This document shows, piece after piece, positions 3,477-22,490 of a stretch of DNA of 22,490 nucleotides; the first letter of the stretch is position 1; each line of letters starts with the position of its first letter. The translations under genes and the position numbers were made by a program. Source of the DNA: a virus; IMG/VR virus record IMGVR_UViG_3300027971_000242, positions 1 to 22,490 of that record; one strand, written 5' to 3'. The notes below the pieces were generated by a model that worked only from the letters and a program-made list of their open reading frames with translations, was not told the DNA's origin and searched no databases.

Positions 3477-3499
3477 GTACATTGATTGATCAATGGTAC
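3477..3499 (+). promoter_or_regulatory. Inverted repeat centred just upstream of the Mre11-Rad50 fusion start codon
   Basis: CATTGAT-TG-ATCAATG (3480-3495) is a perfect 7-bp dyad; it extends to GTAC at each end (3477-3480 and 3496-3499) if one bulged base is allowed. The ATG start (3493-3495) lies in the right arm. There is no Shine-Dalgarno sequence in front of this gene. The loop of 2 bases is too tight for a full RNA hairpin, so a dimeric repressor site on DNA is at least as likely as an mRNA structure. Confidence 0.45.
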
Positions 3500-6400: not shown

Positions 6401-6660
6401 CTTCTCTTGCTGTTAGAGTTGCAATGATTAACACGACGACCCTGCCAAAATCAGATTTTTTTATTGTAGATGAAGGATTTGGTACATTAGACGATGCAGG
6501 AGTTGAAGCTTGTAATAGACTTCTAACATCTTTAAAGAAATATTTTAGATCTATTATTGTGATTACCCATGTTGATGGCGTCAAAGATATTGTAGACCAT
6601 GTATTTGAGATCACAAAAAACGAGAAAGACTCAAAAGTTTTGTACGGAGTCGATGAATGA
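3493..6660 (+). CDS. Fused Mre11/SbcD-Rad50/SbcC recombination nuclease-ATPase (gp47-gp46 fusion)
   Basis: A single 1055-residue chain joins two proteins that are separate in T4. Residues 1 to about 300 are a metallophosphatase with all Mre11 motifs: HTADIHW, GGDLFH, GNHD, YHGPVHG and GDIHQMQ. After a capping/linker region the Rad50 half starts near residue 376: Walker A GPNRIGKSS (about 410-418), long charged coiled-coil stretches (about 560-720 and 745-900), a hook apex CGDDYPSC (Cys727, Cys734), signature ELCSGMEK (960-967), Walker B FFIVDEGFGTLDD (Asp993, Glu994) and a switch His in VITHVDG. The hook has a C-x6-C spacing instead of the classical C-x2-C. Expected role: ATP-gated end resection and double-strand break processing for recombination-dependent replication. 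The start is fixed by the nuclease motif at residue 6. Its stop overlaps the next ATG (ATGA). There is no frameshift or internal stop, so the fusion is genuine in this sequence. Confidence 0.93.
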   Translation: MVRIAHTADIHWRGLSRHDEYREVFTTFLKDCKKNNVDHIFIGGDLFHTKTTGISPEYIEQMTWWLDAMAEVAHVHLTLGNHDGNLVNLSRQDAVSPIVSALNNPRVHLYKKSGVYEFHPGFNWCVYSLFDEEGWKDVKPEPGKINIACYHGPVHGSVTETGWELDDAQIKVEFFESYPYAFLGDIHQMQFLGYRDTVEGENKPWIAYPGTPIQQNYAEEVDRGYLFWTITSDIDWDVKFKKLPNPKPYVTLMWSGSLEELLKSSKKYPEGTRFRVRSSEDLGQKDFKVISEALKSSKLATEVTFKSDFIVDRSVVKAGTVTIGKSDLRSSDVLLKLIKDYYSSTQISKDSWTSISEQVKSYLSIAAANEETTRNSKWSLRYLEFDNMFAYGEGNAINFDKLSGIIGVFGPNRIGKSSIVGTLMYSLFNTTDRGPMKNIHVCNVRKPYCSSKVIINHNGIDYVIERQTTKSENKKGIINAATALNVFKIRDDGEADDLAGEQRTDTEKVIRSLIGSQEDFTMTSLAAQGETNQFISQGSTKRRAILSRFLDLDIFDRMHEIANRELSGLKAQLKNFPERDWNEVIQLGNKAIEKVDDEIKQLNQKIKEKQFKLSQFQTELSKHKDVTPVTKSQVESFAKMVELLEQRCKSCTQTIEKLGQEIKECEKKIETIKEVKSDNNLTDLKARHSAYLSLESSITSLKHSYEKESTLLKNQQKSLKILDEVPCGDDYPSCKFIKDAHINKGKTSEQEEKVSFVQQKLLEASKALDELEKENILARLEKLERLIDLESKLLLEMSRKETELAKAKSTCDSQVIDLKSSKERLVHLEEALKNEENAEAVSIKTEIENISRDIDDLTSLKISAATNKGKLTATLEKTGEEKESRDNLLEKMKVHEIVASAFSKKGIPLIITKSQLPVINSEISKILQGIVDFTIELENDESTDSSEIYINYGDSRRVIELCSGMEKTIASLAVRVAMINTTTLPKSDFFIVDEGFGTLDDAGVEACNRLLTSLKKYFRSIIVITHVDGVKDIVDHVFEITKNEKDSKVLYGVDE

Positions 6661-7001: not shown

Positions 7002-7379
7002 ATGCCAAACATCGATTACAACGCTCTTGGCCAAGCTTTAGATACATCTTGGGGTCGTTCTTCTACTCCAAAAACATCTTCGTACTCGGTTAAATTTACT
7101 CTTGCCGGTGATGTATTAACAGCGTCATATCAAGCAGTTGTTAATTTTGCTACCGAAAAAGAGATGATTATTATGAAAAGACTTTATGAAGAAGAGTCCA
7201 TCGAAATTACCAGCGCTGTTCTAAAAAGTGTTAAGTCTGTCTACAAAGATATTTCTGGAAATTCCCTTTCAACAAAAGAAGCGTCTTCATCTACGTCGAT
7301 TGAAATAATAAATTTCAATATTCATAATCCAAAGAGAACTGCATACTTCCGTAGGAAGACAGCTTTTGAAATAGCTTGA
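7002..7379 (+). CDS. Conserved-looking phage protein of unknown function upstream of terminase
   Basis: A 125-residue protein with a good ribosome-binding site (GGAG at 6993-6996) and an ATG start. The sequence alternates hydrophobic and polar residues in strand-like stretches (YSVKFTLAGDVLTASYQAVVNFA, then SIEIINFNIHNP) around a short helix (EKEMIIMKRLYEEES) and ends with a basic tail (NPKRTAYFRRK). No zinc motif, signal or membrane segment. Its TGA overlaps the terminase ATG by one base. It occupies the place where the small terminase (gp16) sits in T4, but gp16 proteins are mainly helical and this one looks beta-rich, so I do not call it small terminase. A minor virion or head-assembly protein is the best guess. 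Confidence 0.65.
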   Translation: MPNIDYNALGQALDTSWGRSSTPKTSSYSVKFTLAGDVLTASYQAVVNFATEKEMIIMKRLYEEESIEITSAVLKSVKSVYKDISGNSLSTKEASSSTSIEIINFNIHNPKRTAYFRRKTAFEIA

Positions 7380-8989
7380 TGAAACCTCTTACAAGAAGTG
7401 AACAGATAAAGGAGATCATCCGATGCGGAAAGGATCCGATCTACTTTATGAAAAATTATGTGAGGATTCAGCACACGGTGCGTGGTCTTATACCGTTTGA
7501 AACTTACGACTTTCAGGATGATTGTGTTAAACAGTTTGAAGAAAATCGCTTTAACATTGTTTTAAAGTCTCGTCAGTTAGGCTTATCAACAGTCACGGCT
7601 GCTTATGCAGTATGGTTTGCGATCTTTAAAAAAGATAAAAATATCCTTGTCATCGCTACAAAACTTTCTACGGCTATGAACTTCATCAAAAAAGTGAAGA
7701 TTATGTTAGACGGTTTACCAAAGTGGCTGTTACTCACAAAGTTTGAACCTACAAAGCAATCAATATCTTTTGCAAATGGTTCACAAATAACTGCAATACC
7801 GACGTCACCAGATGCTGGTCGTTCCGAGGCGCTGTCTCTTCTCATCGTCGACGAAGCTGCATTCATTAGAGACTTTGAAGACATCTGGACCGGTCTATAT
7901 CCAACCTTATCTACTGGTGGTAACGCTATTATCATTTCGACTCCGAATGGTGTTGGAGGACAATACTATCGACTCTGGATGGAAGGTGAGACAAAACAAA
8001 ATGAATTCAACACTATCAAGCTTTCTTGGTGGGTTCATCCTGAGCATGATCAAGAATGGTTTGATAAAGAAACAAAGAATCTTCCAAAACGTAAAGTAGC
8101 CCAAGAGTTTCTTTGCGACTTTATTTCTTCAGGTGACACATTCTTACAGCCTTCAGAACTTGAAAGTCTGAGAGAGTCTATTAGACCTCCTGTTGAAAAG
8201 TCGGGACCACAAAATGCAGTGTGGACGTGGAGGCACCCAGTCGTCGGTAAAAAATACATTATTGCAGCTGACGTCGCTCGAGGAGACGCAGGAGATTTTT
8301 CTACTTTTCATATTGTCGATAATGAATCTTGTGAGGTCGTTGCAGAGTATATGGGAAAAACGCCACCAGACAAGCTCGCAGATCTTTTATTCGAATATGG
8401 AAAAAAATACAACGAAGCTTTGATCTGCCCTGAACAAAATACATTCGGTTATTTTACTTGCGTAAAGCTTCGTGATGACGGGTATCCAAAGTTATATTAT
8501 CAAGGAGCTACGGGTGATCCTTTTGAATATCATTCCATGGACCCGAACGCCGTCCCAGGATTTTCTACTCAAACAAAAACTAGGTCTCAAATATTAACAA
8601 AGTTAGAGGAATTAGCACGTAATTCTGTTCTTAAAGTTTATTCTCAAAGGCTTTACGATCAGCTACAAGCCTTTGTTTGGAACGGTTCTCGTGCTCAAGC
8701 ATCAAAAGATGCTCACGATGATCTTATCATGAGTCTTGCTATCGCGATGTGGCTTGTTGCTGGCGATTCAGGCGTAAATGAACAAGGAATGGCTCTTGCG
8801 TATGCAATGTTAAAAGCTACGACAGTTCAAAGAAATGAAAGCATGCCAGGTGACGTAGCTTCAGTACGACCGGTCCCAAACGCGAACATGCAAAATTTTA
8901 ACAATAGACCACAGGACGTTTATAAACCAAAGGACCCTTCTCAAGTTCGACACACAGATGTGACAGATTTTTCTTGGCTGTATCGTTAA
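7379..8989 (+). CDS. 17: Terminase large subunit (gp17-like ATPase/nuclease)
   Basis: A 536-residue packaging motor. The ATPase half has a Walker A variant SRQLGLST (residues 64-71), Walker B LLIVDEAAF (Asp158, Glu159) and the coupling motif IISTPNG (about 186-192). The C-terminal RNase H-fold nuclease shows IIAADVARGDAGDFS (Asp298), a second acid in ICPEQN (Glu352) and DAHDDLIMSLA (Asp447, Asp448). It pumps DNA into the prohead through the portal encoded downstream and cuts the concatemer. The start is ATG 7379, overlapping the preceding TGA by one base; the TTG three bases earlier is not needed. Length is somewhat short of T4 gp17 (610 residues). I see no inserted intein or intron. The last 60 residues are low-complexity (Asn, Pro, Gln) and end with a conserved-looking DFSWLYR. 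Confidence 0.96.
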   Translation: MKPLTRSEQIKEIIRCGKDPIYFMKNYVRIQHTVRGLIPFETYDFQDDCVKQFEENRFNIVLKSRQLGLSTVTAAYAVWFAIFKKDKNILVIATKLSTAMNFIKKVKIMLDGLPKWLLLTKFEPTKQSISFANGSQITAIPTSPDAGRSEALSLLIVDEAAFIRDFEDIWTGLYPTLSTGGNAIIISTPNGVGGQYYRLWMEGETKQNEFNTIKLSWWVHPEHDQEWFDKETKNLPKRKVAQEFLCDFISSGDTFLQPSELESLRESIRPPVEKSGPQNAVWTWRHPVVGKKYIIAADVARGDAGDFSTFHIVDNESCEVVAEYMGKTPPDKLADLLFEYGKKYNEALICPEQNTFGYFTCVKLRDDGYPKLYYQGATGDPFEYHSMDPNAVPGFSTQTKTRSQILTKLEELARNSVLKVYSQRLYDQLQAFVWNGSRAQASKDAHDDLIMSLAIAMWLVAGDSGVNEQGMALAYAMLKATTVQRNESMPGDVASVRPVPNANMQNFNNRPQDVYKPKDPSQVRHTDVTDFSWLYR

Positions 8990-9404: not shown

Positions 9405-9422
9405 CCGTCCAAGATTGGACGG
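9405..9422 (+). promoter_or_regulatory. 18-bp palindrome just upstream of the portal start
   Basis: CCGTCCAA-GA-TTGGACGG, an 8-bp perfect dyad, ends 10 bases before the ATG at 9433. The right arm holds the only purine-rich stretch (GGACGG) in ribosome-binding position, so an RNA hairpin (about 7 bp with a 4-base loop) would hide it. It is not followed by a T-run, so a terminator role is unlikely. The rest of the 76-base gap from 9357 shows nothing further. Confidence 0.5.
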
Positions 9423-9432
9423 GCAAATTTGT

Positions 9433-11448
9433 ATGGTAAAAGAAAAAGATCAATCGTTATTTCAACGTCTTTCGAAACTTTTTAAGAGTGGTCCTGTAGT
9501 TAAGCGTAAAATACGTACTCTTGACACAGCTGTCGCCGTTGCAGATAAAACAAAATCTTCTGGTGCTTTACTTTTTCAAAAGTCGTTAGCTCCTTCTTAC
9601 GCTACCATTACTGCGAATGCTTATAACTTATCAGAACGTCTGATGAGGTATCAAGATTTTAGCGAAATGGAGTACACTCCTGAGATCGCGGCAGCAATGG
9701 ACATTTATGCTGATGAGACCGTCGCGCAGGATGATAAAGGAAGAGTACTTCACATCTACTCTGATAACGAAAAGATAAAAGAAATTCTTGAAGATTTGTT
9801 CTACAACACATTAAACGTAGAATTTAACCTTCGTTCTTGGGCAAGAAACCTCGTTAAATATGGAGACTTTTTTCTCTATAATGATGTCTCTCCAAAATAT
9901 GGTGTAATTAACGCATTTCCAATACCAGTCAACGAGATTGAACGCGAAGAAAACTATGATCCAAACGATCCCTTTGCCGTACGATATCGTTGGGTAACAT
10001 TAGGAAATAGGACCCTAGAGAACTGGGAAGTAACCCACTTTCGTCTACTCGGCAACGACATGTTCTTGCCTTATGGCTCATCAGTCATCGAGGCCGCTCG
10101 TCGCATTTGGCGTCAATTAATCCTTATTGAGGATGCTATGCTGGTTTATCGAGTCGTCCGCGCTCCGGAGCGTCGTGTTTTCTATATTGATGTTGCCAAT
10201 ATTCCTCCTGAAAACGTTCCGATGTACGTCGAAGAGCAGAGAAAAAATCTTCGTACAAACCAGGTCGTAGATAGAGCAACGGGTCGTCTTGATCTTCGTT
10301 ACGCGCCACTTTCTATCGAAGACGATTACTTTATTCCAGTCCGTGGTGGAGAATCTGGTACAAAGATTGACACGTTGGCAGGTGGTCAAAATGCAGCAGC
10401 CGTTGAAGACGTAGCTTACATCCAAAAGAAGCTGTTCGCTGCTTTAAAGGTTCCAAGAGCTTATCTCGGTTATGATGAGATGTTATCTTCAAAAGCAACG
10501 TTGGCTCAGGAAGACATCAGGTTTTCTAGGACTATCCAAGTTATCCAAAAAGTTCTTATATCTGAATTAAATAAACTTGCAATAATCCATCTGTATTCTA
10601 ACGGTTTTGATTCTGATGATTTACAGAACTTTACTCTGCGCCTCTCTAACCCATCGACGGTTGCTCAGCAACAGAAGCTCGAGTTGTGGAGGTCTAAGTT
10701 TGAGATCGCGGGCTCTTCTCCTGAAGGTATGAGTAGCAAAGAGTTTATCCGTAAGACAATTTGGGGTCTTACAGACGAGCAAATCAGCGATATTGACGAA
10801 CAAAGATATCAAGAAAAGATTGTCGATGCAGCTATCGAAAACGCAAAACCTGAAGGTGAAGAAGCCGCTGAGGACGACGAAGGTGGCGGAGGTGGCGAGC
10901 TCGGTGGGGAAGAAGAGAAAGAACCAGCTGAAGAAGAAGCAGGCGGCGAAGAAGCAGGCGGCGAAGAAGACCTCTTTGCTGGTGATGATATTGAAGAAAA
11001 AGAGCCTTCCGTCGATCTTTTAACTTCTTCAGATGAACCTGACGTTATGCCTGCTTTATACGAAAAAGATAAGCTTCCTGTTAAGGCGCGGTCTCAATTA
11101 AAAAGAGCAATCTATAATCAAAGTCGTAGAAAAAAGAGACACGATCATATACCAAAGTTTAAAGAAATGACAGACTATGATTCTGATGGTATGACTGATC
11201 CTTTTGACTCAGGATGGATGAAATCGATTGTTAGTAATCCGTTCAAAGAGTCGTCGAACAATGAGAGGTCGGCGCCGAAGGTGTCACTGCCACCAGACTT
11301 AAAATCATCTCTGACAAAGATGTCAGAGAAATTAAACTTTGTAAATTCTCCCGAAAGATTTGGTTTGCTGTCAGAAGAAAAAAAGATCAATTATGACTTT
11401 AACGATAACGGCGATTTACTTATCATAGACGAAAATATTGAAAGGTAG
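9433..11448 (+). CDS. 20: Portal protein (gp20-like)
   Basis: A 671-residue portal subunit of the T4 gp20 type; twelve copies form the vertex through which DNA enters and leaves the head. Diagnostic stretches include ERLMRYQDFSEMEYTPEIA, the AMDIYADE segment, YGDFFLYND, RVVRAPERRVFYIDVANIP, and the signature DDYFIPVRGGESGTKIDTL followed by AGGQN and a VAYIQKKLFAALKVPRAYLGYDE helix. T4 gp20 has 524 residues; the excess is a C-terminal extension containing a very acidic Gly/Glu-rich stretch (about residues 474-535) and a basic segment (QSRRKKRHDHIPKFKEM). I chose ATG 9433; the frame also offers TTG 9415, but this lies in a palindrome and would add residues with no conserved content. The acidic tail resembles the acidity of the scaffold and might mediate prohead core contact, an inference. 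Confidence 0.95.
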   Translation: MVKEKDQSLFQRLSKLFKSGPVVKRKIRTLDTAVAVADKTKSSGALLFQKSLAPSYATITANAYNLSERLMRYQDFSEMEYTPEIAAAMDIYADETVAQDDKGRVLHIYSDNEKIKEILEDLFYNTLNVEFNLRSWARNLVKYGDFFLYNDVSPKYGVINAFPIPVNEIEREENYDPNDPFAVRYRWVTLGNRTLENWEVTHFRLLGNDMFLPYGSSVIEAARRIWRQLILIEDAMLVYRVVRAPERRVFYIDVANIPPENVPMYVEEQRKNLRTNQVVDRATGRLDLRYAPLSIEDDYFIPVRGGESGTKIDTLAGGQNAAAVEDVAYIQKKLFAALKVPRAYLGYDEMLSSKATLAQEDIRFSRTIQVIQKVLISELNKLAIIHLYSNGFDSDDLQNFTLRLSNPSTVAQQQKLELWRSKFEIAGSSPEGMSSKEFIRKTIWGLTDEQISDIDEQRYQEKIVDAAIENAKPEGEEAAEDDEGGGGGELGGEEEKEPAEEEAGGEEAGGEEDLFAGDDIEEKEPSVDLLTSSDEPDVMPALYEKDKLPVKARSQLKRAIYNQSRRKKRHDHIPKFKEMTDYDSDGMTDPFDSGWMKSIVSNPFKESSNNERSAPKVSLPPDLKSSLTKMSEKLNFVNSPERFGLLSEEKKINYDFNDNGDLLIIDENIER

Positions 11449-13343: not shown

Positions 13344-13772
13344 ATGGGAATTACTAAGAACCAGCTTAAGTCGATTGTTAAAGAGTGTTTAGTTGAAATT
13401 CTTTCAGAAGGAATGGGGCCATCAGTTAATTCTTCAATTAATGAAGCTTCTAGGAAAGTTTTAAGACAACCAACCAACCAATTGTCAACATCCCAAAAGT
13501 TGAATCAGCAAAAGACGAAGTTGCAGACTTCTGCTTTAAAAGAAGCGATTCGTCGTGAAGCGGGAGGAAATGACATGATGGCAGCAATTTTAGCAGACAC
13601 TGCTACAAACACTCTTCCATCTATGCTGGAAAATGATAGAACAAAAGTAACTCCCAGCGTTGGTGGCTCTATAGAAAGAGTTGTTGCTTCTCATGACCCC
13701 GAAGAGTTATTCGGAGAAGAGGCTGCTTCAAAGTGGGCCGATCTAGCATTTACGGGTTTGTCTAAGAAATGA
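13344..13772 (+). CDS. Putative internal or scaffold-associated head protein with capsid-targeting-like N-terminus
   Basis: A 142-residue protein. ATG 13344, one base after the previous stop, is chosen over an upstream TTG (13308), which would overlap the preceding gene and only add an unrelated segment. The N-terminal helix GITKNQLKSIVKECLVEILSEG matches that of the 9036 product and ends L20-S-E22 followed by Gly23, the same residue number as there. The middle is Gln/Ser/Lys-rich and looks disordered; a helix follows (GGNDMMAAILADTATNTLPSML) and the C-terminus is EEAASKWADLAFTGLSKK. This end resembles the C-terminus of the scaffold core (DRWAKLAGIK) in its W-A-x-L-A core, suggesting that both termini address common prohead partners. 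Function unproven. Confidence 0.62.
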   Translation: MGITKNQLKSIVKECLVEILSEGMGPSVNSSINEASRKVLRQPTNQLSTSQKLNQQKTKLQTSALKEAIRREAGGNDMMAAILADTATNTLPSMLENDRTKVTPSVGGSIERVVASHDPEELFGEEAASKWADLAFTGLSKK

Positions 13773-13778
13773 TGTAAA

Positions 13779-13798
13779 TTTTTTCGTATTTTTTTTTT
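13779..13798 (+). other. Poly-T tracts in the gap before gene 13836
   Basis: The gap holds a T6 run (13779-13784) and, five bases later, a T10 run (13789-13798). No G+C-rich hairpin stands upstream, so it is not a standard intrinsic terminator; it may be promoter spacer DNA or a pause site. The TTTCG and CGAAA that flank the T10 run could pair, but with the T-run in the loop. Confidence 0.4.
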
Positions 13799-13835
13799 AT
13801 CGAAATATTTAGCAATTGTTGCAGGAGAAATTATT

Positions 13836-14075
13836 ATGAAACTTACAAGTAAATTACTCAAGAAGATCATTGAAGAAGAAGTTGCCAAGTTTGGAGACAT
13901 GAAGGATGTCGAAGACGTCAAGGCTGATGAGGTCGAGGCGGATGAGTTTGGTTCTGACAAGGCTCTTGAGAAGAAGATCGACTACATTAAGGCTCTTAAG
14001 ATTGAAGAGGCACGTCTTCGTAATCGTCTAAAGAAGATTGCTGAAGCCCGCGACCGCGCTTTACGCAACATTTGA
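13836..14075 (+). CDS. Small helical head-region protein with shared N-terminal helix
   Basis: A 79-residue, highly charged protein with AGGAG 8 bases before its ATG. N-terminus MKLTSKLLKKIIEEEVAKFG follows the same pattern as the 9036 and 13344 products ([IL]-T-x3-L-[KR]-x-I-I/V-x-E) but lacks an L-x-E at residues 20-22 (the nearest is I12-E-E14), so it is the weakest member of the group. The rest is acidic (DVEDVKADEVEADEFGSD) and then a strongly predicted coiled coil (ALKIEEARLRNRLKKIAEARDRALRNI). No catalytic motif. It is probably a small scaffold-associated or internal protein; I do not know the family. Confidence 0.6.
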   Translation: MKLTSKLLKKIIEEEVAKFGDMKDVEDVKADEVEADEFGSDKALEKKIDYIKALKIEEARLRNRLKKIAEARDRALRNI

Positions 14076-14108
14076 ATTTTGTTTTATAATATTTGAAAGG
14101 CGATTGTT

Positions 14109-14597
14109 ATGGGAACACCAGGCAGCGGAAGATATACAACTTACTTACCTGTTAAAAGCTCTAAGACCGACAGACTCTTGAAGCTATTTAAGAATGGACT
14201 TAGTGCTCTTTACAACGATAAAGAAACTAACTCCCTTGCCGCGAAAGAGGCAGTCGCCGTCGCTAAGTCTGTTATAGACGGAAAAGGCGATGTAGACATG
14301 TTTGGCACAGGTGTCGATTTGACATATGGAAAAGCGCCAAATACAGCAGACGTTAAGTGGACAAAATCAGGAGATCCTGCAAATGCATATGCCCCTGATC
14401 TATCTTCTCCCGGGCCTGGAAAGACAGGCGGCGTCGATAAAGATGTTGATCCAAAGCTTTCTCCAGAAGACATCAAACCTAATTTTGATTCGAAGAAGCC
14501 AAGCGTCAATGCGACATCTCCTTCTGCGACTTCCCATCGTCTTGGCACAACTTCGTTGGGAGAAAACCTTGAGGGCGGAAAGAGCTCTGTTGAATAA
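14109..14597 (+). CDS. Unknown head-region protein with basic N-terminus and disordered acidic tail
   Basis: A 162-residue protein with AAAGG 8 bases before the ATG. Residues 1-60 look ordered: MGTPGSGRYTTYLPVKSS, then a helix TDRLLKLFKNGLSALYND and a second one SLAAKEAVAVAKSVIDG. After residue 70 it becomes Pro/Gly/Ser/Asp-rich and disordered-looking (SSPGPGKTGGVDKDVDPKL and so on). There are no Cys residues and no membrane or signal segment. It lies between small helical head genes and the scaffold gene and shares their + strand late-operon arrangement, so a virion or assembly role is likely. I cannot name a family. One possible protease site (LGE at about 152-154) is not enough to claim processing. 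Confidence 0.6.
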   Translation: MGTPGSGRYTTYLPVKSSKTDRLLKLFKNGLSALYNDKETNSLAAKEAVAVAKSVIDGKGDVDMFGTGVDLTYGKAPNTADVKWTKSGDPANAYAPDLSSPGPGKTGGVDKDVDPKLSPEDIKPNFDSKKPSVNATSPSATSHRLGTTSLGENLEGGKSSVE

Positions 14598-14645
14598 CTC
14601 CGATCTAGTTAATAGTTAATGAGTATAAGAGAGGTCTGAGAAGGT

Positions 14646-16610
14646 ATGTCTAAGCAATTATATGAAGAGGCTTTAGCCGACGTAAAGAAGCTGAAGGAGA
14701 TTGCAGAAGATAATGCTAAGAAAGCATTGATCGAAGCTGTTTCTCCTCGTATCAAAGATCTAATTGAGGCTGAGCTTCTTCGTGAAGTTGAAGAATTTGA
14801 GAAAGAAGAAGACGGTCTTCTTTTAGATGATGGAATGGAATCACCAGAAGCTGCAGGCTCTATTCCCATGTCTTCTATTGGAGTACCTACAGATGATGAA
14901 AAGGTTACTCTTGATCTAGACAAACTTGCGATTTCTCCTTCTGAAGAAGAATATGAACTCAGCAATCAAACTGATGATGCTGCGACAGACCTCGTCGGCA
15001 AGTTAAATTTAAATTTTGCAGAGTCCACAAAAGTTGAATCAAAACTTTTCAGACTTAGCGAATCAGCAGAAACTTTTTCGAAAGTCAGACCAATGATAAA
15101 GGCGTTGGACGGTTTTCAAAAAAAGGTCTCAGAAGCAATTTCTGAGGTCGAAAGTTTGTATCAGTACCTGCAGGAATCTGCGGGCAATCTTCAAGGTAAA
15201 GGTGCCTATGAAGAAAAGTTAGAAGATCTATACAAGAAACTCAACAAGCTCGTGGAGCAGGATAACATGAAAAAGAACTTAAAGTCACTAACAGAAGCAG
15301 AAATCTCTCTTAAACTTACTAACGTACCAGATGAACTTGAAGACGCACTTGACCAACTACAGGTCGAACTCTCTCCTGGAGAAGGTTCAGACGAAGATGA
15401 AGAAGATCTTGACCTTGGTGGTGAAGGCGAAGAAGGCGAAGAGGAAGTTGATCTCGATCTTGGCGACGAAGACGAAGACGAGGCCGAAGATGAAGAAGTT
15501 GAAGAAGAAGGAGCAATGCCAATGGAGTCTCTTTCCTTAACAGATAATGTTGTTGTCGAAATTGACGAGAACATGCTTCGTCAAGAAATCGGTCGTATGC
15601 GCGCTCTTCGTGAAGCTTCTGAGTCCGCAGACGTTCAGTCATGGGGTCATGATGCCGGCGAGGTTGCAGACGGATTTGAGGATGAAGACATGGGAGACCC
15701 ATTCGTCGACGTTGAGCTCACAACAGAGGGCGATGCCGATGCTGAAGAAGTCGAAGAACTCGATGAGCTTGATCAGGCGATGTATCAGGGGGTCGACCGT
15801 GCCGCGGGTGGTCGTCGTTCAGCAGGTCAGTCACCATCCGCAGGACCAGGAGCTGGCTCCTCCAAACGTGGTAGATCACCTGGCTCTGATGTTGAAGAAG
15901 CTCAAAAAGATGAAAAAGAGATGGAAGAAGATGAACAAGTACAAGAGGTTCGTCATCGCTTAACTCGAGAATTTAGAATTCAGACTGAAGCCAAGAAAAA
16001 GGCTCAGACTGCCAAAAAGCAGCAAAAAGAAGCGCAGAAGAAGTCTCAGCAAAAGCAGCTTGAGGCTCAGAAAAAGGCTAAACAAAAGAAGCAGCAAGAG
16101 GCTCAGAAAGCAAAACTAGAGTCTCAGAAGCAAGCTAAGCAAGCCAAGAAGATGCAGGAGGCATATGCCTACTACGCAAATATTTTCAACGAATCAGTGC
16201 GTCGCACTGCCAAGTTGCAATCGGTTCTCATTGAGAGCCGTAAAGAGGTGAACCTAAATGGCACTTCAACAAAGTCCGCGGTAGAGACTAATAATCTCCG
16301 TAAGAAGTTGGCGGAAACGAATCTGTTCAACATGAAACTTCTCTATAGCAATAAACTACTTCAGAACGAGTCCCTTACTAAACGCCAAAAAGCCGAGGTT
16401 ATTGAACGTCTTGATGAAGCATCTAGCGAAAGAGAAGTTAAACTTGTGTATGAAAGCCTTGTCAAGGCATTAGCAGGAACTTCTCGCCCAATTGCCGAGA
16501 ACGCTAGCCGAGTTATTGGCTCTTCTTCACAAGCAACTCGTCCCGCGTCCACTGTCATAGCCGAGGGCTACGAGGCAGATCGTTGGGCGAAGCTTGCAGG
16601 TATCAAATGA
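14646..16610 (+). CDS. 22: Prohead core scaffold protein (gp22-like)
   Basis: A 654-residue protein that forms the inner core on which the shell assembles. It sits directly before the major capsid gene as gp22 does in T4, but is more than twice as long as T4 gp22 (269 residues). It is very acidic in the middle (about residues 248-290, runs of Asp/Glu/Gly) and in 340-375, then Ala/Lys/Gln-rich with a long coiled coil (about 440-510). A conserved-looking C-terminal helical domain follows (NLFNMKLLYSNKLLQNES, then REVKLVYESLVKALAG). By eye at least 14 [L/I]-x-E sites are present, for example after Glu30, 41, 139, 177, 217, 323, 530, 591 and 640, as expected of a scaffold destroyed by the gp21-type protease. 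The last site would release a C-terminal peptide with DRWAKLAGIK. A GAGAGGT sequence 10 bases before the ATG serves as ribosome-binding site. Confidence 0.85.
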   Translation: MSKQLYEEALADVKKLKEIAEDNAKKALIEAVSPRIKDLIEAELLREVEEFEKEEDGLLLDDGMESPEAAGSIPMSSIGVPTDDEKVTLDLDKLAISPSEEEYELSNQTDDAATDLVGKLNLNFAESTKVESKLFRLSESAETFSKVRPMIKALDGFQKKVSEAISEVESLYQYLQESAGNLQGKGAYEEKLEDLYKKLNKLVEQDNMKKNLKSLTEAEISLKLTNVPDELEDALDQLQVELSPGEGSDEDEEDLDLGGEGEEGEEEVDLDLGDEDEDEAEDEEVEEEGAMPMESLSLTDNVVVEIDENMLRQEIGRMRALREASESADVQSWGHDAGEVADGFEDEDMGDPFVDVELTTEGDADAEEVEELDELDQAMYQGVDRAAGGRRSAGQSPSAGPGAGSSKRGRSPGSDVEEAQKDEKEMEEDEQVQEVRHRLTREFRIQTEAKKKAQTAKKQQKEAQKKSQQKQLEAQKKAKQKKQQEAQKAKLESQKQAKQAKKMQEAYAYYANIFNESVRRTAKLQSVLIESRKEVNLNGTSTKSAVETNNLRKKLAETNLFNMKLLYSNKLLQNESLTKRQKAEVIERLDEASSEREVKLVYESLVKALAGTSRPIAENASRVIGSSSQATRPASTVIAEGYEADRWAKLAGIK

Positions 16611-16634
16611 TTCGTTAACCAACAAACAAAGATT

Positions 16635-16640
16635 TAGGAG
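16635..16640 (+). promoter_or_regulatory. Strong ribosome-binding site of the major capsid gene
   Basis: TAGGAG, 6 bases before the ATG at 16647, is the best Shine-Dalgarno match in the window and fits the expected high expression of this gene. Confidence 0.7.
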
Positions 16641-16646
16641 AAAACT

Positions 16647-18497
16647 ATGAAACAGTTCACATTAGAACATTTAGCACAGGGCATCAAGGACAAGCACGTC
16701 GGTGCTGAACGCGCCCGTTTAACAGAGAAGTGGAGCCGTACAGGTCTCCTCCGCGGACTCGACGGAACACGTCGCGAGACGATGTCTCAGCTCCTCGAGA
16801 ACCAGGCAGCACAGGTCCTCAAGGAGAGCAATGCTCTCTCTGCAGGCGGCGGCGGTCTCGTTGGTTCTGGACAGATCCAGGGCTTCAGCAACATCGCATT
16901 CCCAATCGTCCGTCGCGTGTTCGGTGGCCTCGTCGCCAACGAGCTCGTCTCTATACAACCAATGAGCCTCCCATCGGGACTCATCTTCTATCTTGACTAT
17001 ACCTACGGTTCTACCCAGGGTACACCAGCCGGTGGCTCAGGTTCTACATACACACGTGGAGATTCTCTCTACAACAATCCAAAAGGCAAAGGCGTCCAGA
17101 GCGGATCTCTCGCAACTGGTGGTATGTATGATCTTGTCAACACCGGATACTCTCGTGTCACTGGATCTGCAACAGGTCTCACTGTTACAGCATTCGGCTC
17201 ATGGGGTGGTTTGAACGGAACATCGTGGCAGGATGGTCTCGTCATCACAAGCGATACAATGTTCTCTGGAACAAACGCTCGCTTCGCGGACTTCGACGCT
17301 CAGGTCGAGACAGACCTCAACCTCGGCAACGTCGACGCAGCGTTCGCAGTCATTCCTCTTGCTTCTCTCAGCAACATGGACAAGACAGCGGTCAGCCAGC
17401 TCGCAGTCTTCCCAGGAACATTCGCAAACTGCACCGCATGGGGCGAAAGCTACCAGGGTGGAACAGGCGTCCTCAATCTCCGTCGCCTCAACAAGCGCGG
17501 TAACTGGTCTGCAGGCGTCTTCACACCAGATCCTCTAAACGGTTCGCACGTCCTCACACTCGTGAAGGGCGCAAACGCTGCAGCAATCTCCGGTACAGTT
17601 GCTAGCGTTGCTTACTCAATCTCGACATCTCTTTCTGTTGATTCATCCTCTGGTGGATCCGTCACAGTCCCTTCCTTCGAGTCTGATTTCGGTGCAACAC
17701 CAGCTCCCGCAATCCCAGAGATCGATATCAAGATCGAGTCTATCGCAATCACAGCAGAGACCCGTAAACTCCGCGCAAAGTGGAGCCCTGAGCTCGCTCA
17801 GGACCTCAACGCCTATCACTCGATGGACGCTGAGGTGGAACTCACATCGATTCTTTCTGAGCAGATCGCTCTTGAGATCGACCGTGAGATCCTCAACGAT
17901 CTCGTGACATCTGCAAACGGTGCAAACTACTACTGGTCCCGTGCACCAGGCAAGTTTGTCAACAAGACAACAGGCGCCGCAGTGCAACTCGCATCGTCCC
18001 TCTCTATCGGACCAGCCTTCACCGGTACAGTCCGCGAGTGGTACGAGACACTCATCGAGACAATCATTGACGTAGCAAACACCATCCACCGCAAGACACT
18101 CCGCGGCTCCGCAAACTTCATGGTTTGTGGCCCAGACGTTGCAACCATCCTCGAGTCCTCAGTGCTTTATAAGCCAAAGTTCTCTATGGACGGCGAAGGT
18201 CAGGTCGGCAGCCCATTCACAATCGGTGCCGAAGCGATCGGTACTCTCAGCAACCGCTTCACAGTCTACAAGGATCCTTACTTCTCTCGTAACAAGATCC
18301 TCGTCGGCTATAAGGGTGGTTCCTACCTTGAGACCGGTTACGTCTACGCACCATACGTGCCACTCATCGTGACACCAACAATCTTCGCACCAGAGGATTT
18401 CACACCACGCAAGGGTGTGATGACTCGCTACGGTAAGAAGGTCGTTCGTAGCGATTTCTACGGAACGGTCACCGTTTTAGACATGAATATCATATGA
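16647..18497 (+). CDS. 23: Major capsid protein (gp23-like)
   Basis: A 616-residue HK97-fold shell protein of the T4 gp23 family. Recognisable parts: the N-terminal delta region; GFSNIAFPIVRRVFGGLVAN and SIQPMSLPSGLIFYLDYTYG; the helix MDAEVELTSILSEQIALEID; VREWYETLIETIIDVANTI; NFMVCGPDVATILESS; and a C-terminal VYKDPYFSRNKILVGYKG and YGKKVVRSDFYGTVTVLDMNII. A consensus maturation site is QVLKE60 followed by SNALSAGGG, matching the place where T4 gp23 is cut (after Glu65); cleavage should leave about 556 residues. Compared with T4 gp23 (521) it is about 95 residues longer, mostly in residues about 150-350, a Gly/Ser/Thr-rich insertion likely exposed on the outside of the capsomer. Codon use differs sharply from neighbours (Leu CTC, Ile ATC, Val GTC, Arg CGC, Thr ACA, Pro CCA). 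Confidence 0.96.
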   Translation: MKQFTLEHLAQGIKDKHVGAERARLTEKWSRTGLLRGLDGTRRETMSQLLENQAAQVLKESNALSAGGGGLVGSGQIQGFSNIAFPIVRRVFGGLVANELVSIQPMSLPSGLIFYLDYTYGSTQGTPAGGSGSTYTRGDSLYNNPKGKGVQSGSLATGGMYDLVNTGYSRVTGSATGLTVTAFGSWGGLNGTSWQDGLVITSDTMFSGTNARFADFDAQVETDLNLGNVDAAFAVIPLASLSNMDKTAVSQLAVFPGTFANCTAWGESYQGGTGVLNLRRLNKRGNWSAGVFTPDPLNGSHVLTLVKGANAAAISGTVASVAYSISTSLSVDSSSGGSVTVPSFESDFGATPAPAIPEIDIKIESIAITAETRKLRAKWSPELAQDLNAYHSMDAEVELTSILSEQIALEIDREILNDLVTSANGANYYWSRAPGKFVNKTTGAAVQLASSLSIGPAFTGTVREWYETLIETIIDVANTIHRKTLRGSANFMVCGPDVATILESSVLYKPKFSMDGEGQVGSPFTIGAEAIGTLSNRFTVYKDPYFSRNKILVGYKGGSYLETGYVYAPYVPLIVTPTIFAPEDFTPRKGVMTRYGKKVVRSDFYGTVTVLDMNII

Positions 18498-18513
18498 CAT
18501 GAACGTCATCTGA
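18480..18513 (+). repeat. Overlapping tandem duplication of the capsid gene 3' end
   Basis: Bases 18480-18497 and 18496-18513 match at 15 of 18 positions with a 16-base period. The second copy lies just after the true TGA stop in the next frame, where it again reads DMN-V-I-stop. This looks like a small slippage duplication after the stop codon. Confidence 0.55.
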
Positions 18514-18533
18514 GTTCATAGCTTGAACAGCTG

Positions 18534-18569
18534 CAAAAGCCACCCAAAAGGTGGCTTTTGTAGTTTTTG
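18534..18569 (+). terminator. Strong intrinsic terminator after the major capsid gene
   Basis: A perfect 11-bp stem, CAAAAGCCACC / GGTGGCTTTTG (18534-18544 and 18550-18560) with a CAAAA loop, is followed by TAGTTTTTG. It ends the late head-gene transcript 37 bases after the capsid stop codon. The A-run in front of the stem could also let it work on a leftward transcript. Confidence 0.85.
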
Positions 18570-18607
18570 CTGTCTGTTTTATTACAACTTTAGATTTATC
18601 GATACTA

Positions 18608-18643
18608 TGTAGTCCATAGAAGGGTGTGATGATATGGACTGCA
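18608..18643 (+). promoter_or_regulatory. Hairpin sequestering the start codon of the homing endonuclease
   Basis: TGTAGTCCATA (18608-18618) pairs with TATGGACTGCA (18633-18643), 11 bp with a single G-U wobble, around a 14-base loop. The loop holds the ribosome-binding sequence (GAAGGG, 18619-18624) and the right arm holds the ATG (18634). It would fold well in mRNA and block initiation. Stem-loops covering the initiation region are known to limit expression of T4 homing endonuclease genes. Confidence 0.7.
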
Positions 18644-20064
18644 AGTTGTGTAAATTCAAGCATGATGATCTAAAGAAGCTGACCAATCACATCAGATCCG
18701 AACATGGATTGTCTTCTGAGGACTACACGGTAAAGGTTTATCACGATGGAATAAAGCCTACCTGTAGGGAATGTCAAGCTCCTGTCAGGTATGTTTCTTT
18801 CTCTTTCAAGGCTTTCTGTAAAGATCATTCGCATCTTGCCATGAAAGAAGGCGGATCTCGCGGCGGAAAAGCCGAGGCTTGGAACCGCGGTAAGACCAAA
18901 CAGACTGACGATAGGATCAAACAACAATCAGAAAAGATGACGGGTACCGGCAATCCTTTTTACGGTCAACACCACGCTCAGGATACCCTACAAAAAATCA
19001 GTTTAAGCAAGCTGTTGGTAACCTCGACGTTAAGCGAAAGATTATCTGCAAGGCAATCTGAGTTCGTCCTGATAACGCCGATAGATCAATACGTCTCTAG
19101 ACAAGAGCAATACCTAACATTCCAGTGTACCAAGTGTGGAGAACTACAACCAAAGACCCTTCAAGCCTTCGAAAGAGGAAGTAGGTGTTATCGGTGTTAT
19201 CCAATTGGTAAATCTAATTGGGAATTAGAAGTATTTTCTTATGTCCAGTCGATAACCTCAGACGCCATATCAGGAGACAAGAAGGTCATCTCTCCGAAGG
19301 AGATAGACGTCTATGTTCCATCCAAAAAATTTGGAATCGAGTGTCATGGATTGTATTGGCACAGTGATGGAGCGAAGCAGGATGAGATATTCAACAAGAA
19401 TAAACACCTAGAGAAATCCGTCTTAGCTTCTGAAAAGGGAATAAAGTTGCTACAGATATTCGAGGATGAGTGGAGGGACAAACGAGGGATATGTGAGTCT
19501 ATGATCCTCCACCGTCTTGGATTAGATGCTCACCGGTGTAAGACTTGGTCTACAAAGGTTGTGGAGTTGAATTCAAAAGAGCAGAGAGAATTCTTCGATT
19601 CTACCCACATCTCCGGGTATGTTCCTTCAAAGATTACCTGGGGTTTGAAGGACAGAAGCAATAACATCGTAGCTGCATTATCGTTGAGGGTTCCTCGTCA
19701 CGGAAAGAAGTACGAAGGATGTCTAGAGATAGCTAGGTTCAGCGCAGCGATAGGAACGTCTGTTCCAGGAGGATTGTCCAAGTTGTTGAAAGCAGCAAAG
19801 TTTTGGTGCATTGAAAATGGTTATAAAGGTATCATGACATATGTCGATAGACGGATTGGTGACGGGAAAGGATACAAGCTTGCTGGATTTAATTGTATAG
19901 GCGCAACAGCTGTTGATTATTGGTATACGGATAACTATCTACGTTATGATAGGTTTAAATTTCGAGCAAAGAATGGAAAGACAGAAAAACAAGTTGTATT
20001 AGATTCAAAAGTTTCTAGAATTTATGGATGTGGATCTTCAATATTTTCATTATCACTTTCATAA
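18634..20064 (+). CDS. Homing endonuclease, Vsr-like/EDxHD type with NUMOD3 and zinc fingers
   Basis: A 476-residue free-standing selfish endonuclease. It starts with a C2H2-type finger (Cys3, Cys6, His19, His24), a second Cys/His cluster (CREC at 44-47, Cys62, His65), and NUMOD3-like DNA-binding segments (AWNRGKTK at 83-89 and GTGNPFYGQHH at 104-114). A zinc ribbon (CTKC 165-168, CYRC 185-188) leads into a Vsr-like PD-(D/E)XK nuclease: KEIDVYVPSKKFGIECHGLYWHS with Asp225, Glu236 and His238, then GIKLLQIFEDEW (270-280). A C-terminal domain of about 170 residues (VDRRIGDGKGYKLAGFN, DYWYTDNYLRYDRFKFR) is common in this group and looks like a GNAT-type fold. It lies immediately after the capsid gene terminator, a favoured target for homing; no intron is present. 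The start codon is inside a hairpin. Base composition differs from the flanking capsid gene, consistent with recent arrival. Confidence 0.85.
   Translation: MDCKLCKFKHDDLKKLTNHIRSEHGLSSEDYTVKVYHDGIKPTCRECQAPVRYVSFSFKAFCKDHSHLAMKEGGSRGGKAEAWNRGKTKQTDDRIKQQSEKMTGTGNPFYGQHHAQDTLQKISLSKLLVTSTLSERLSARQSEFVLITPIDQYVSRQEQYLTFQCTKCGELQPKTLQAFERGSRCYRCYPIGKSNWELEVFSYVQSITSDAISGDKKVISPKEIDVYVPSKKFGIECHGLYWHSDGAKQDEIFNKNKHLEKSVLASEKGIKLLQIFEDEWRDKRGICESMILHRLGLDAHRCKTWSTKVVELNSKEQREFFDSTHISGYVPSKITWGLKDRSNNIVAALSLRVPRHGKKYEGCLEIARFSAAIGTSVPGGLSKLLKAAKFWCIENGYKGIMTYVDRRIGDGKGYKLAGFNCIGATAVDYWYTDNYLRYDRFKFRAKNGKTEKQVVLDSKVSRIYGCGSSIFSLSLS
18640..18716 (+). other. C2H2-type zinc finger coding segment of the homing endonuclease
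   Basis: Encodes residues 3-24 and flanks (CKLC...H-x4-H). Zinc fingers of this kind at the N-terminus of a homing endonuclease usually help choose the DNA target. Sub-feature only. Confidence 0.5.
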
Positions 20065-20126
20065 AATGATCACAACAATAACTAATATTCTGATTTTACG
20101 CATGCACCTCTATATTTTATAGAAAT
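20065..20126 (+). other. Short A+T-rich gap, possible promoter
   Basis: This 62-base gap before the double zinc-ribbon gene is A+T-rich. It includes a 5-bp dyad CTATA-TTT-TATAG (20110-20122) that ends five bases before the ATG. No ribosome-binding site matches the consensus. The downstream gene must have its own promoter or read-through because a terminator lies upstream of the homing endonuclease gene. Confidence 0.3.
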
Positions 20127-20876
20127 ATGATAAGAACCAGACGATCCATCACTGAAGGCACACTTAGAACCTACATTCGTAGCGTTCTCTTAGAGTATCC
20201 ACAGGACGTATGTCCGAAGTGCGGTGCGGACAGATCGAAAGCATCAACAAAGAAGTTCTGTGGTAAGTGTGGAGCTAAGATGGGACTGTGTCCTAAGTGC
20301 GAGGAACCACTCGGGGACAAACCCAAGCAGAAGTTCTGTACCAAGTGCGGTGAGAAGTTAGCCTCTCCGGACTCGGGAACGACGAGCGATAAACCAAATC
20401 CAGCTGCTGCCGTCAAGAAAGAACTCGAAAAGACTCTCACGGAGGCTGAGAAGCTTCTAAAAGAGCTTGAGGACGCCGCCTCTAAGGCACCCGAGACTTC
20501 TTCCAAGGAAGAGGAACGTCTGTATGATGAGATCATGGGTCCATATGAAGAAGAGCAAGACAGAATGTTAGAAGTGGATCCTGAGACTCCGCAAGAGGCT
20601 AGAGAACATGTGAGGAAGGTCGGAGACCACATAAGAAAGTTTAGACCAACCATGATAAAGTTGTACAAAGCAGTCAAAGATGAAGGAAAAGTTTTGTCAA
20701 AGCCCGTGCTCGAGTTGTTGATCACGTCCATGAGAAAAGAAGTAGAATTTGAGAAGGAGATGGCGTCGATGGCAGCAGAACACAAGAAGAAGATGGACGC
20801 GTTGAATGATGAAATCTACAAGAAGAACCCACATCAGAAGATGATTGACGACGCGATAAGTTCATCAAAAAAGTAG
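20127..20876 (+). CDS. Double zinc-ribbon protein with a possible capsid-targeting N-terminus
   Basis: A 249-residue protein. Eight cysteines in four C-x2-C pairs (29/32, 45/48, 55/58, 71/74) form two zinc ribbons of the DZANK type (VCPKCGADRSKAS...FCGKCGAKMGLCPKCEEP...FCTKCGEKL). The N-terminus RRSITEGTLRTYIRSVLLE ends in L21-L-E23, resembling the helices of the 9036 and 13344 products, although it is less close in sequence. Residues 95-249 are strongly charged and predicted coiled coil (PAAAVKKELEKTLTEAEKLL, MRKEVEFEKEMASMAAEHKK). There is no catalytic motif. Double zinc ribbons usually bind nucleic acid or protein partners. One reading is a packaged, injected protein acting early in infection; another is a cytosolic adaptor. 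ATG 20127 is the start, without a clear ribosome-binding site. Confidence 0.65.
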   Translation: MIRTRRSITEGTLRTYIRSVLLEYPQDVCPKCGADRSKASTKKFCGKCGAKMGLCPKCEEPLGDKPKQKFCTKCGEKLASPDSGTTSDKPNPAAAVKKELEKTLTEAEKLLKELEDAASKAPETSSKEEERLYDEIMGPYEEEQDRMLEVDPETPQEAREHVRKVGDHIRKFRPTMIKLYKAVKDEGKVLSKPVLELLITSMRKEVEFEKEMASMAAEHKKKMDALNDEIYKKNPHQKMIDDAISSSKK

Positions 20877-20904
20877 ATCTTACTTGATAATGATCAATAT
20901 TTAT
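20875..20904 (+). promoter_or_regulatory. Intergenic motif, copy 2 of 2 (candidate promoter)
   Basis: AGATCTTA-c-TT-gata-ATGATCAATATTTAT, matching the copy at 8992-9017 at 23 positions. It lies at the stop codon of the zinc-ribbon gene and about 75 bases before the next gene, so it could drive that gene. Confidence 0.35.
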
Positions 20905-20949
20905 CGGCAGGCCCGGACCAGTGATCAGCCGACCTCGCCGGCGGTTCGG
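20905..20949 (+). promoter_or_regulatory. G+C-rich structured leader before gene 20979
   Basis: An island much richer in G+C than its surroundings, with several possible stems: CCGAC...GTTCGG (20929-20933 / 20944-20949) enclosing the palindrome CGCCGGCG (20936-20943), and CGGC...GCCG (20905-20908 / 20928-20931). An AAGGAG ribosome-binding site follows at 20965-20970. A structured 5' leader or a terminator without T-run are both possible. Confidence 0.35.
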
Positions 20950-20978
20950 AATCTTGCGAACAAAAAGGAGATCACATC

Positions 20979-21437
20979 ATGCCAAAAGTTACGATTAACA
21001 ATTCACAAGGTTTAGTTCAAAGTTCAGGATCTGGAGTAGAATTTAATTCTTCTGTTTCAATAAACTCGCCAGTTTCAATGACATCGTTACCGACAACGAC
21101 GGTTTCTGCAAAGACAGCTGCTGAAACATTAGTTAGTCCTGGAGCATATACGGTATCTGGAAGTTCTGCATTGACAATGATAATGCCTTTAGCATCTTCA
21201 GTCCCTGGTGGAACATTCGTGTTTCGTACGGCTTCTGCTCATGCTCACATTCTAACTGGTTCTCAAGAAGCAAACGGAACTAAGGTTTTTGCAGGCCAGG
21301 TTGGTGCAACTCCCGATACGCAAGGAAGTAAGTTAACACTTTCTGCCGTTCAAGGCTCATCCGTCGCATTTATCAGCGACGGGGCATCATTTTTGTTGAT
21401 GGCAGTTTCAGGCTCTCATGCGATCAGCGGAACTTGA
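20979..21437 (+). CDS. Beta-rich virion protein (probable decoration or fibre)
   Basis: A 152-residue protein with a strong ribosome-binding site (AAGGAG 8 bases before the ATG). It is Ser/Thr/Gly/Ala/Val-rich and low in charge, with repeated short strands: ITINNSQGLVQSSG, SVSINSPVSMTSL, GAYTVSGSSALTMIMPLA, GGTFVFRTASAHAHILTG, SKLTLSAVQGSSVAFISDGASFLLMAVSG. Such sequences in large phages are typically tail-fibre heads, decoration proteins or head fibres; the GTFVFRTAS...HILTGSQ stretch followed by DGASFLL is a repeated motif of bacteriophage surface proteins. There is no Cys and no signal peptide. It resembles the gene at 12932 only in general type. It stands alone between a zinc-ribbon gene and an HNH endonuclease, which is unusual for a structural gene. 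Confidence 0.65.
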   Translation: MPKVTINNSQGLVQSSGSGVEFNSSVSINSPVSMTSLPTTTVSAKTAAETLVSPGAYTVSGSSALTMIMPLASSVPGGTFVFRTASAHAHILTGSQEANGTKVFAGQVGATPDTQGSKLTLSAVQGSSVAFISDGASFLLMAVSGSHAISGT

Positions 21438-21473
21438 TATTATCAATAATAAAAAGTAGAATATAATTCTTGA

Positions 21474-21797
21474 GTGAAACGTCGCAGTCGTAATCAACCG
21501 CAGCTCATCAAAAACCGATGTGAGGTCTGTGGATTTGATCGGACTGCGGCGTTGAACTTTCATCATATCATTCCGAGGTGTGATCCTCGGTGTACCAATG
21601 ACAATCACAATCTAGCTGTGGTGTGTCACTCTTGTCATGACTTGATCCATGCCGGTGAGATCATTATCATAGGTGTTTATCCTTCGACGGGTGGAAGGAA
21701 GCTCATGTGGTTCCGTGAAGGTGAACAACCACCATTGCCCAAGGAGTTCTGGAAGGTACAGGATAATGTTTTGGTATTAAGGCATAATAACAAGTAA
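21474..21797 (+). CDS. HNH endonuclease
   Basis: A 107-residue protein with a compact zinc-stabilised HNH domain: CEVCG (Cys16, Cys19), LNFHHIIPR (His30, His31), N-x-NLAVVCHSCHDLIH (Asn46, Cys51, Cys54, His59). The catalytic and structural residues are intact. GTG 21474 is the start by frame, and is preceded only by A+T-rich DNA with a weak purine signal. The C-terminal 45 residues (GVYPSTGGRKLMWFREGEQPPLP) may bind DNA. In phages such small HNH genes are either free-standing homing endonucleases or packaging cofactors; since the terminase is 12 kb away, homing is the likelier role. It is followed by a candidate terminator and the lipoprotein gene. Confidence 0.8.
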   Translation: MKRRSRNQPQLIKNRCEVCGFDRTAALNFHHIIPRCDPRCTNDNHNLAVVCHSCHDLIHAGEIIIIGVYPSTGGRKLMWFREGEQPPLPKEFWKVQDNVLVLRHNNK

Positions 21798-21817
21798 GAT
21801 ACTTTTATCTTTTTTTT
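21796..21817 (+). terminator. Weak candidate intrinsic terminator after the HNH gene
   Basis: AAGATA-CTTT-TATCTT (6-bp stem, 4-base loop) followed by six Ts, beginning at the HNH stop codon. The stem is almost all A/T, so it is weak, but stem plus T-run is correctly arranged. Confidence 0.45.
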
Positions 21818-21839
21818 AGTGACGTTGTATTATGGTTAT

Positions 21840-22490
21840 ATGCCTATGAATAGCTCTTTGAAGAACATTATACTTTTATTTTCATTGTCTGGACTGGTAG
21901 CGTATGGATGCGAGAGACCCAACCCTAACAAGATTGCTGGTGATACATCGGCCGTACTTAACGACTGTCCGACTCCGTCCATAGCAAGCGGTCCTGAAGT
22001 TAAACCTTCATCAGGACCAACCGTCGGCGTGACGTCAGGGGGGAATCAAACCTCCAATGTGAGCACATCTTCTTCTGTCTCTACGGGAGCCTCTACTGGT
22101 TCTGGTAATCAACCCCAAGTTGAAAAGACGGAACTTGATGAACGAGAGCTAGACTATTCTGAAGCCTTGCGTACAGCGAGCATTTTGATTGTTGGTGACG
22201 CGCCTACTGTTTCGCAGCTATACGAGCTAGGAGATCTTCCTAAGGAGCAGCAGAAAGCAAAGTATGAAGAGATGATCGACAAGATGTTATCAGACCAACG
22301 GTTTGCTGACGCATTAGTAGAATTCTACAAATATACCTTTAAGATGGGTGGAGCAGCAACGACTCCCGGTGAGCCGACAAGGGACACGGCTCCTACCCTC
22401 GCGGCAAAGATCGTGTATGAAGGTGGCGATTGGAGAGGTATTCTTACCCAGGAATCAGGCACTTGTCCGAGCTTCAATTCCACGAATCAT
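21840..22490 (+). CDS. Secreted lipoprotein resembling DUF1549-type bacterial proteins, 3'-truncated by window edge
   Basis: The frame is open from ATG 21840 to the window end (217 codons) with no stop. Signal: Lys8, a hydrophobic core ILLFSLSGLVAYG, then Cys24 in a relaxed lipobox (A-Y-G-C), consistent with a lipid-anchored exported protein. Residues 44-95 are a Ser/Thr/Gly/Pro-rich linker. From about residue 104 a helical domain reads DYSEALRTASILIVGDAPTV, then KYEEMIDKMLSDQRFADALV and EFYKYTFKMGG, ending in GTCPSF. This resembles the start of DUF1549-like lipoproteins of Myxococcota and other deltaproteobacteria ('LRTASL.LTG..PT...YE..ID.LL.DPRFA'), but I have no database result. A second in-frame ATG (residue 3) is an alternative start. 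A phage-carried lipoprotein could change the host surface, for example superinfection exclusion. Confidence 0.6.
   Translation, partial: MPMNSSLKNIILLFSLSGLVAYGCERPNPNKIAGDTSAVLNDCPTPSIASGPEVKPSSGPTVGVTSGGNQTSNVSTSSSVSTGASTGSGNQPQVEKTELDERELDYSEALRTASILIVGDAPTVSQLYELGDLPKEQQKAKYEEMIDKMLSDQRFADALVEFYKYTFKMGGAATTPGEPTRDTAPTLAAKIVYEGGDWRGILTQESGTCPSFNSTNH

Follow-up and report, generated by a model that had tools for sequence, protein, structure and literature searches.

The window analysed here is the 22,490-base IMG/VR virus contig IMGVR_UViG_3300027971_000242. Its last gene was read in a preliminary description as a bacterial-type lipoprotein with a DUF1549-like domain. This raises the question of where such a gene comes from, with which partners it acts and what it could contribute to a phage infection.

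The window and its phage genes

The terminase large subunit, portal gp20, prohead genes and gp23 read on the contig identify it as a T4-like phage. The features relevant here are listed below (strand given where assigned).

7376-8989, terminase large subunit
9415-11448, portal gp20
16647..18497, plus strand, major capsid protein gp23, bounding the variable module slot on its left side
18634-20064, homing-endonuclease-like protein of 476 aa (NUMOD3; PHROG 3339)
21474..21797, plus strand, HNH endonuclease gene, directly upstream of gene A
21840..22490, plus strand, 5' part of gene A (217 of 493 codons), with signal peptide, Cys24, Ser/Thr/Gly linker and PSCyt2/DUF1549-like residues 102-163
21840..21911, plus strand, signal peptide and lipobox of gene A (residues 1-24, ending LVAYG-C24)

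The NUMOD3 gene lies directly 3' of the capsid gene; it is found in many relatives and is absent from some. No T4 late promoter (TATAAATA) occurs within the window. A single 1055-aa ORF (3493-6660) fuses an SbcD-like (gp47) phosphoesterase to an SbcC-like (gp46) ATPase, which are encoded by two genes in T4.

Since gene A is located at the contig end and displays bacterial-type features, the right end might have resulted from chimeric assembly or bacterial contamination, and the preliminary description had considered that it could belong to another replicon. It does not. An independent contig, L002, is contiguous across this end and shares 97.0% DNA identity with the window over 21452-22490, compared with 96.5% over the capsid region (13562-20058), so that the window end is not chimeric. 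The same junction is present on phage contigs of 211, 205, 187, 97 and 90 kb. Moreover, the GC content of the gene is 0.48 in the phage against 0.63-0.71 at the bacterial loci described below. The probability of an artefact is therefore negligible. Between the homing-endonuclease-like and HNH genes (20124-21450 in the window, 6650-8078 in L002), a small repeat-rich gene differs between the two contigs, with a 152-aa version in the window and another version in L002, and is flanked on both sides by 96-97% DNA identity. To judge from this alignment, the region resembles a cassette that has been swapped, a break lying near the HNH gene start.

Gene A, a lipoprotein with a haem c motif

The frame opened by the ATG at 21840 (or 21846; this second ATG may be the true start) runs off the window end after 217 residues. 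The complete gene, encoding 493 aa (P0001), was obtained from L002 (8478-9959), and the feature extends about 3.5 kb beyond the window, including the rest of A and two further genes. Relatives of the 217-residue fragment are encoded on five other viral contigs. A genome scan with this fragment detected no bacterial relative, no PHROG family matched it better than E=0.7, and a weak match to the tape-measure gene of a Rhodococcus phage (E=0.9) was taken as chance.

Cys24 follows a hydrophobic signal, LLFSLSGLVAYG-C, and precedes the Ser/Thr/Gly linker. Two types of this gene set, I and II, can be distinguished, type II being the distant paralogue. The lipobox cysteine is found in LVAYG-C24 in the window, in LVLSAC and CGVGC in type II members, and in a similar context in the bacterial copies. 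The YGCERPNP motif is kept in most type I orthologues of both phage and bacterial origin. The description of A as a bacterial-type lipoprotein is thus upheld.

The window protein matches PF07583 (PSCyt2/DUF1549) with E=0.0025 and 18.2 bits, below the cut-off of 29.8, and P0001 stays under the Pfam cut-offs for PSCyt2, PSCyt3 and PSD2 (16.9 for the latter). Type II phage homologues pass the PSCyt2/DUF1549 threshold (30.7 in L127 and 29.9 in L176), and that of L176 also passes PSCyt3/DUF1588 (28.8, cut-off 27). The bacterial type I homologue of L046 scores 43.9 against PSCyt2; against PSD2/DUF1585 it reaches 29.3 (cut-off 25.8), a threshold that bacterial L040 also exceeds. The proposed DUF1549 likeness is thus supported through relatives, whose versions of the gene pass the curated threshold; the window protein itself stays below it.

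The predicted architecture of A is PSCyt2/PSCyt3/PSD2 (DUF1549/1588/1585). The part missing from the window includes a PSD2/DUF1585-like C-terminus and a haem c motif, CSNCH, at residues 323-327 of P0001, followed by QFDSKG, in keeping with the C..CH and FD..G pattern of PSCyt3/PSD2 proteins. CxxCH is invariant in all 25 aligned A proteins, phage and bacterial. The motif makes it likely that A carries haem. The AF2 model of A has a pLDDT of 63, and a Foldseek search with it against the PDB returned no match at E<=0.001.

A three-gene operon

A heads an operon, A-B-C, whose second and third genes lie directly behind it in L002. B is a second, Cys-rich lipoprotein of 352 aa whose start overlaps the end of A; no known family was found for it. 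C (533 aa) carries a twin-arginine signal, RRRNFLK, in which RRNFLKM and the following hydrophobic stretch correspond to a Tat substrate (TIGR01409 18.9, cut-off 16.7); C of L127 matches PF10518 (24.6, cut-off 22.7). The order A-B-C is kept on every contig reaching far enough. The operon and the lipoprotein assignment can be regarded as practically certain. The single lipoprotein gene of the preliminary description is thus real but is one of three, and its c-type haem motif and Tat-exported partner had been missed. In L127, the type II B gene (13969-14696) has an in-frame stop soon after the signal peptide, with a later start possible; in L176 (200 kb, type II), A, B and C are all open.

Beyond the Tat signal C has no Pfam match, and it does not reach the cut-off of the PF07394 (DUF1501) profile. 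Profile-profile comparison with DUF1501 proteins from Myxococcota genomes gives probabilities of 95% (local) and 98% (global), against 5% for DUF1552, the frame-checked DUF1501 template set being small and noisy so that this is moderate evidence. In the alignment, D-P-H of C pairs with the D.H motif of DUF1501 and GDTPxTP with the EFGRTP-like motif. On this basis C is rather likely to be a remote DUF1501 relative. However, on our reading C shows no clear counterpart of the N-terminal metal/nucleophile motif that DUF1501 proteins carry, and it therefore may not be a hydrolase. An AF2 model of C built from 21 close homologues has a pLDDT of 33.

Slot, distribution and exchange among phages

C was found on 31 viral contigs, including those of 211, 205 and 187 kb, and is accompanied by A and B wherever the contig reaches. 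The module is located downstream of gp23 and, where visible, upstream of gp13-gp14-gp15, a right border that falls outside the window. Among the 41 scorable capsid sequences in the tree (the window included), 15 are associated with a type I module and 3 with a type II module; the other 23 have neither within the downstream sequence available for each contig. The three type II phage contigs were found by a scan with the L127 protein. Contigs of 278, 213 and 162 kb contain no module copy anywhere. Since the module is missing from the majority of related capsid lineages whose sequence extends far enough, it is dispensable. Searches of the INPHARED phages with both types of A and C yielded no match for the full proteins; the carriers are a family of large T4-like freshwater phages without a close reference phage. 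The three-gene exported envelope set is a kind of phage cargo absent from the reference phage records searched.

The HNH gene occurs at this site both with and without the module and belongs to an exchanged block. Between L003 and the window, the HNH-plus-module block shows 92% DNA identity while parts of the core show about 70%, which indicates that the block moves between phages. The operon could thus be a passenger, persisting mainly through HNH-driven spread of the block with little benefit for infection: the HNH gene is directly upstream of it in many carriers, and the exchange takes place between phages with quite divergent cores. However, the median pairwise dN/dS is 0.08 for A, 0.14 for B and 0.04 for C (from few unsaturated pairs), pointing to strong purifying selection on all three genes and already weakening this explanation. 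Most copies are without decay, the HNH gene does not depend on the module for its presence at the site, and the operon appears to have been captured twice (see below). A passenger status is accordingly improbable.

The position between the capsid and the neck/tail genes, together with the predicted export of all three products, would also fit a late envelope remodelling in which the module, rather than serving metabolism, alters the envelope for progeny release or spread. Such a lysis-related role is equally improbable: spanin-like lysis genes were rejected as candidates since sequence and domains differ, endolysins and holins are likewise dissimilar, and an M15 peptidase with a peptidoglycan-binding domain is encoded by its own gene downstream (L003 15969-16757).

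On the minus strand (17991-20537), L003 encodes a repetitive protein of 848 aa in which seven segments match bactofilin (PF04519); it could be a fibre or a cytoskeleton-like protein. Small protein-kinase-like or phosphotransferase-like genes with a GSSR..Y...VLKIA motif are found at the slot edges (L002 12633-13433, L127 9977-11212), on either strand among relatives; the L002 gene has no Pfam match.

Bacterial copies and direction of transfer

A scan with gene C identified ten bacterial loci, at most 78% identical, in MAGs that carry the labels Polyangiaceae, Polyangia, Myxococcales or Deltaproteobacteria and of which several evidently come from lakes. The closest copies are those of Polyangiaceae, in agreement with the Myxococcota affinity initially suggested. 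Complete A-B-C operons are present on real chromosomes (e.g. L040 7429-11617; L039; L047). A lack of similarity to bacterial lipoproteins, which would have spoken against the preliminary description, was not observed. These freshwater Polyangiaceae operons agree with those of the phages in their three genes, in gene order, in the export signals and in the haem motif but differ in being chromosomal, of high GC and multi-copy: each MAG checked contains between one and three close copies as well as a distant type II paralogue. The L040 operon is flanked by clpA, glmS, a beta-galactosidase gene and nuoN/M/L; the beta-galactosidase and nuo genes recur beside L038 (gene names as we read them from the translations). 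Upstream of the operon in L040, L043 and L046 there is a Clp-type ATPase gene, an arrangement that points to vertical inheritance in these bacteria. Only ten of 284 Myxococcota genomes gave any match, and only two contain type I copies. The operon genes of L043 and L046 have a GC3 of 0.89-0.93, higher than the 0.84-0.87 of the adjacent genes, which may reflect high expression.

A maximum likelihood tree built from 53 rows of C groups the 24 phage sequences of type I in a single clade (99/99) within the Polyangiaceae type I group (100/99), while the sequence of phage L127 branches separately, among the bacterial type II paralogues (98/95). Phage copies carried by genuine phage genomes of 187-211 kb are thus nested among bacterial homologues at two positions, suggesting transfer from bacteria to phages in at least two independent captures. 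From this topology, the operon was almost certainly captured from Myxococcota, and very probably twice independently, into the same region. GC3 is 0.26-0.44 in the phage genes compared with 0.83-0.89 in L040; this phage-like composition indicates that the capture is not recent.

Host

The gene had been considered a potential hint at the host, and its ancestry names Polyangiaceae. Planktonic freshwater members of this family (Myxococcota) are the likely hosts. Their MAGs include TatC and cytochrome-assembly genes, which the module products would need. The 211 kb relative has 13 tRNA genes, mostly for A/T-ending codons, as would be expected for an AT-rich phage in a GC-rich host. One Polyangiaceae MAG contains a CRISPR array (L209, G001:C13 114600-116737) whose 28-nt repeat resembles that of subtype I-F and whose 35 spacers are mostly GC-rich. 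Compared with 2.4 Mb of these phages, the spacers gave nothing beyond shuffled controls; the host link is consequently based on gene ancestry and is likely rather than proven. No described phage of lake Polyangiaceae was found in the literature searched. Gene ancestry offers a lead to the host of widespread T4-like phages with contigs above 200 kb.

Proposed role

Lipoproteins are an established means of superinfection exclusion, which the preliminary description had named, together with host surface change, as a usual role of such phage genes. By providing a phage version of a host surface receptor complex, or by hiding it, the module might block adsorption or injection by rivals. The multi-copy state of the host's own set and the patchy, exchanged occurrence of the block among competing phages are consistent with this. 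However, T5 Llp and TP-J34 Ltp, which resemble the present system in being phage-encoded lipoproteins, are small single genes without a haem motif or a Tat-exported partner, whereas here three genes include an invariant haem motif and the Tat-exported C is the most conserved of all. The module also sits in a structural, presumably late, region. Known defence families were rejected, as PADLOC gave no similarity. Exclusion or receptor masking is therefore rather unlikely, although less so than the passenger and lysis-related alternatives.

The strong conservation, the haem motif and the capture of a whole operon fit an envelope redox or hydrolytic function at least as well as exclusion or surface change. 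We favour the interpretation, with a probability of roughly 0.5, that these genes let the phage renew or adapt an envelope function that its Polyangiaceae host provides, while infection proceeds. At the sequence level this builds on the operon, its export signals and haem c motif, its bacterial origin, the two captures, selection and a constant position within the structural gene region. During infection, the Sec route would export A and B, which would then be lipid-anchored, haem would be attached to A by the host cytochrome c maturation system, and C would be exported folded by Tat. The three proteins would assemble into the envelope complex that the copies of the host itself also make, composed of a monohaem cytochrome lipoprotein (A) and a DUF1501-like, presumably metal-binding, partner (C) in addition to B. 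The phage version might renew or replace that of the host while host expression is shut down, and thereby keep a nutrient- or energy-gaining redox or hydrolytic function of the envelope going until lysis. The capture of one three-gene envelope operon on two occasions suggests that its products pay off during infection.

This strategy would resemble the use of captured host genes by cyanophages. In T4-like cyanophages, host metabolic genes sit in a hyperplastic region of the structural cluster, with homing-type endonuclease genes nearby (PMC2984593). That cargo (psbA, pho, carbon metabolism) is likewise of host origin, placed in a variable structural slot and patchy, and the similar patchy presence of the module in a single structural-region slot speaks for the favoured interpretation. 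The two systems differ in the host phylum, in the slot (gp23 to gp13 here, g15 to g18 there) and in the products, which are exported envelope proteins here and cytoplasmic or photosystem enzymes there.

The architecture of A is shared by the PSCyt/PSD (DUF1549, DUF1588, DUF1585) proteins of Planctomycetes and Verrucomicrobia, whose neighbours are of DUF1501 or DUF1552 type, C being related to the former by profile comparison. This pairing has been described, and in lake Verrucomicrobia the PSCyt genes are linked by context to carbohydrate use, their function not being known (PMC5615132). Compared with these, phage A has diverged (type I copies fall below the Pfam cut-offs), C is remote and the lipoprotein B is added. 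More tentatively, an exported c-type cytochrome lipoprotein with an alkaline-phosphatase-superfamily-like partner could constitute an envelope redox/hydrolysis module, a previously unrecorded class of phage cargo, in phages of uncultured planktonic Polyangiaceae that rebuild host envelope chemistry during infection. PSCyt/DUF1501-type pairs are common in environmental bacteria, and the compact three-gene version under strong selection makes them testable.
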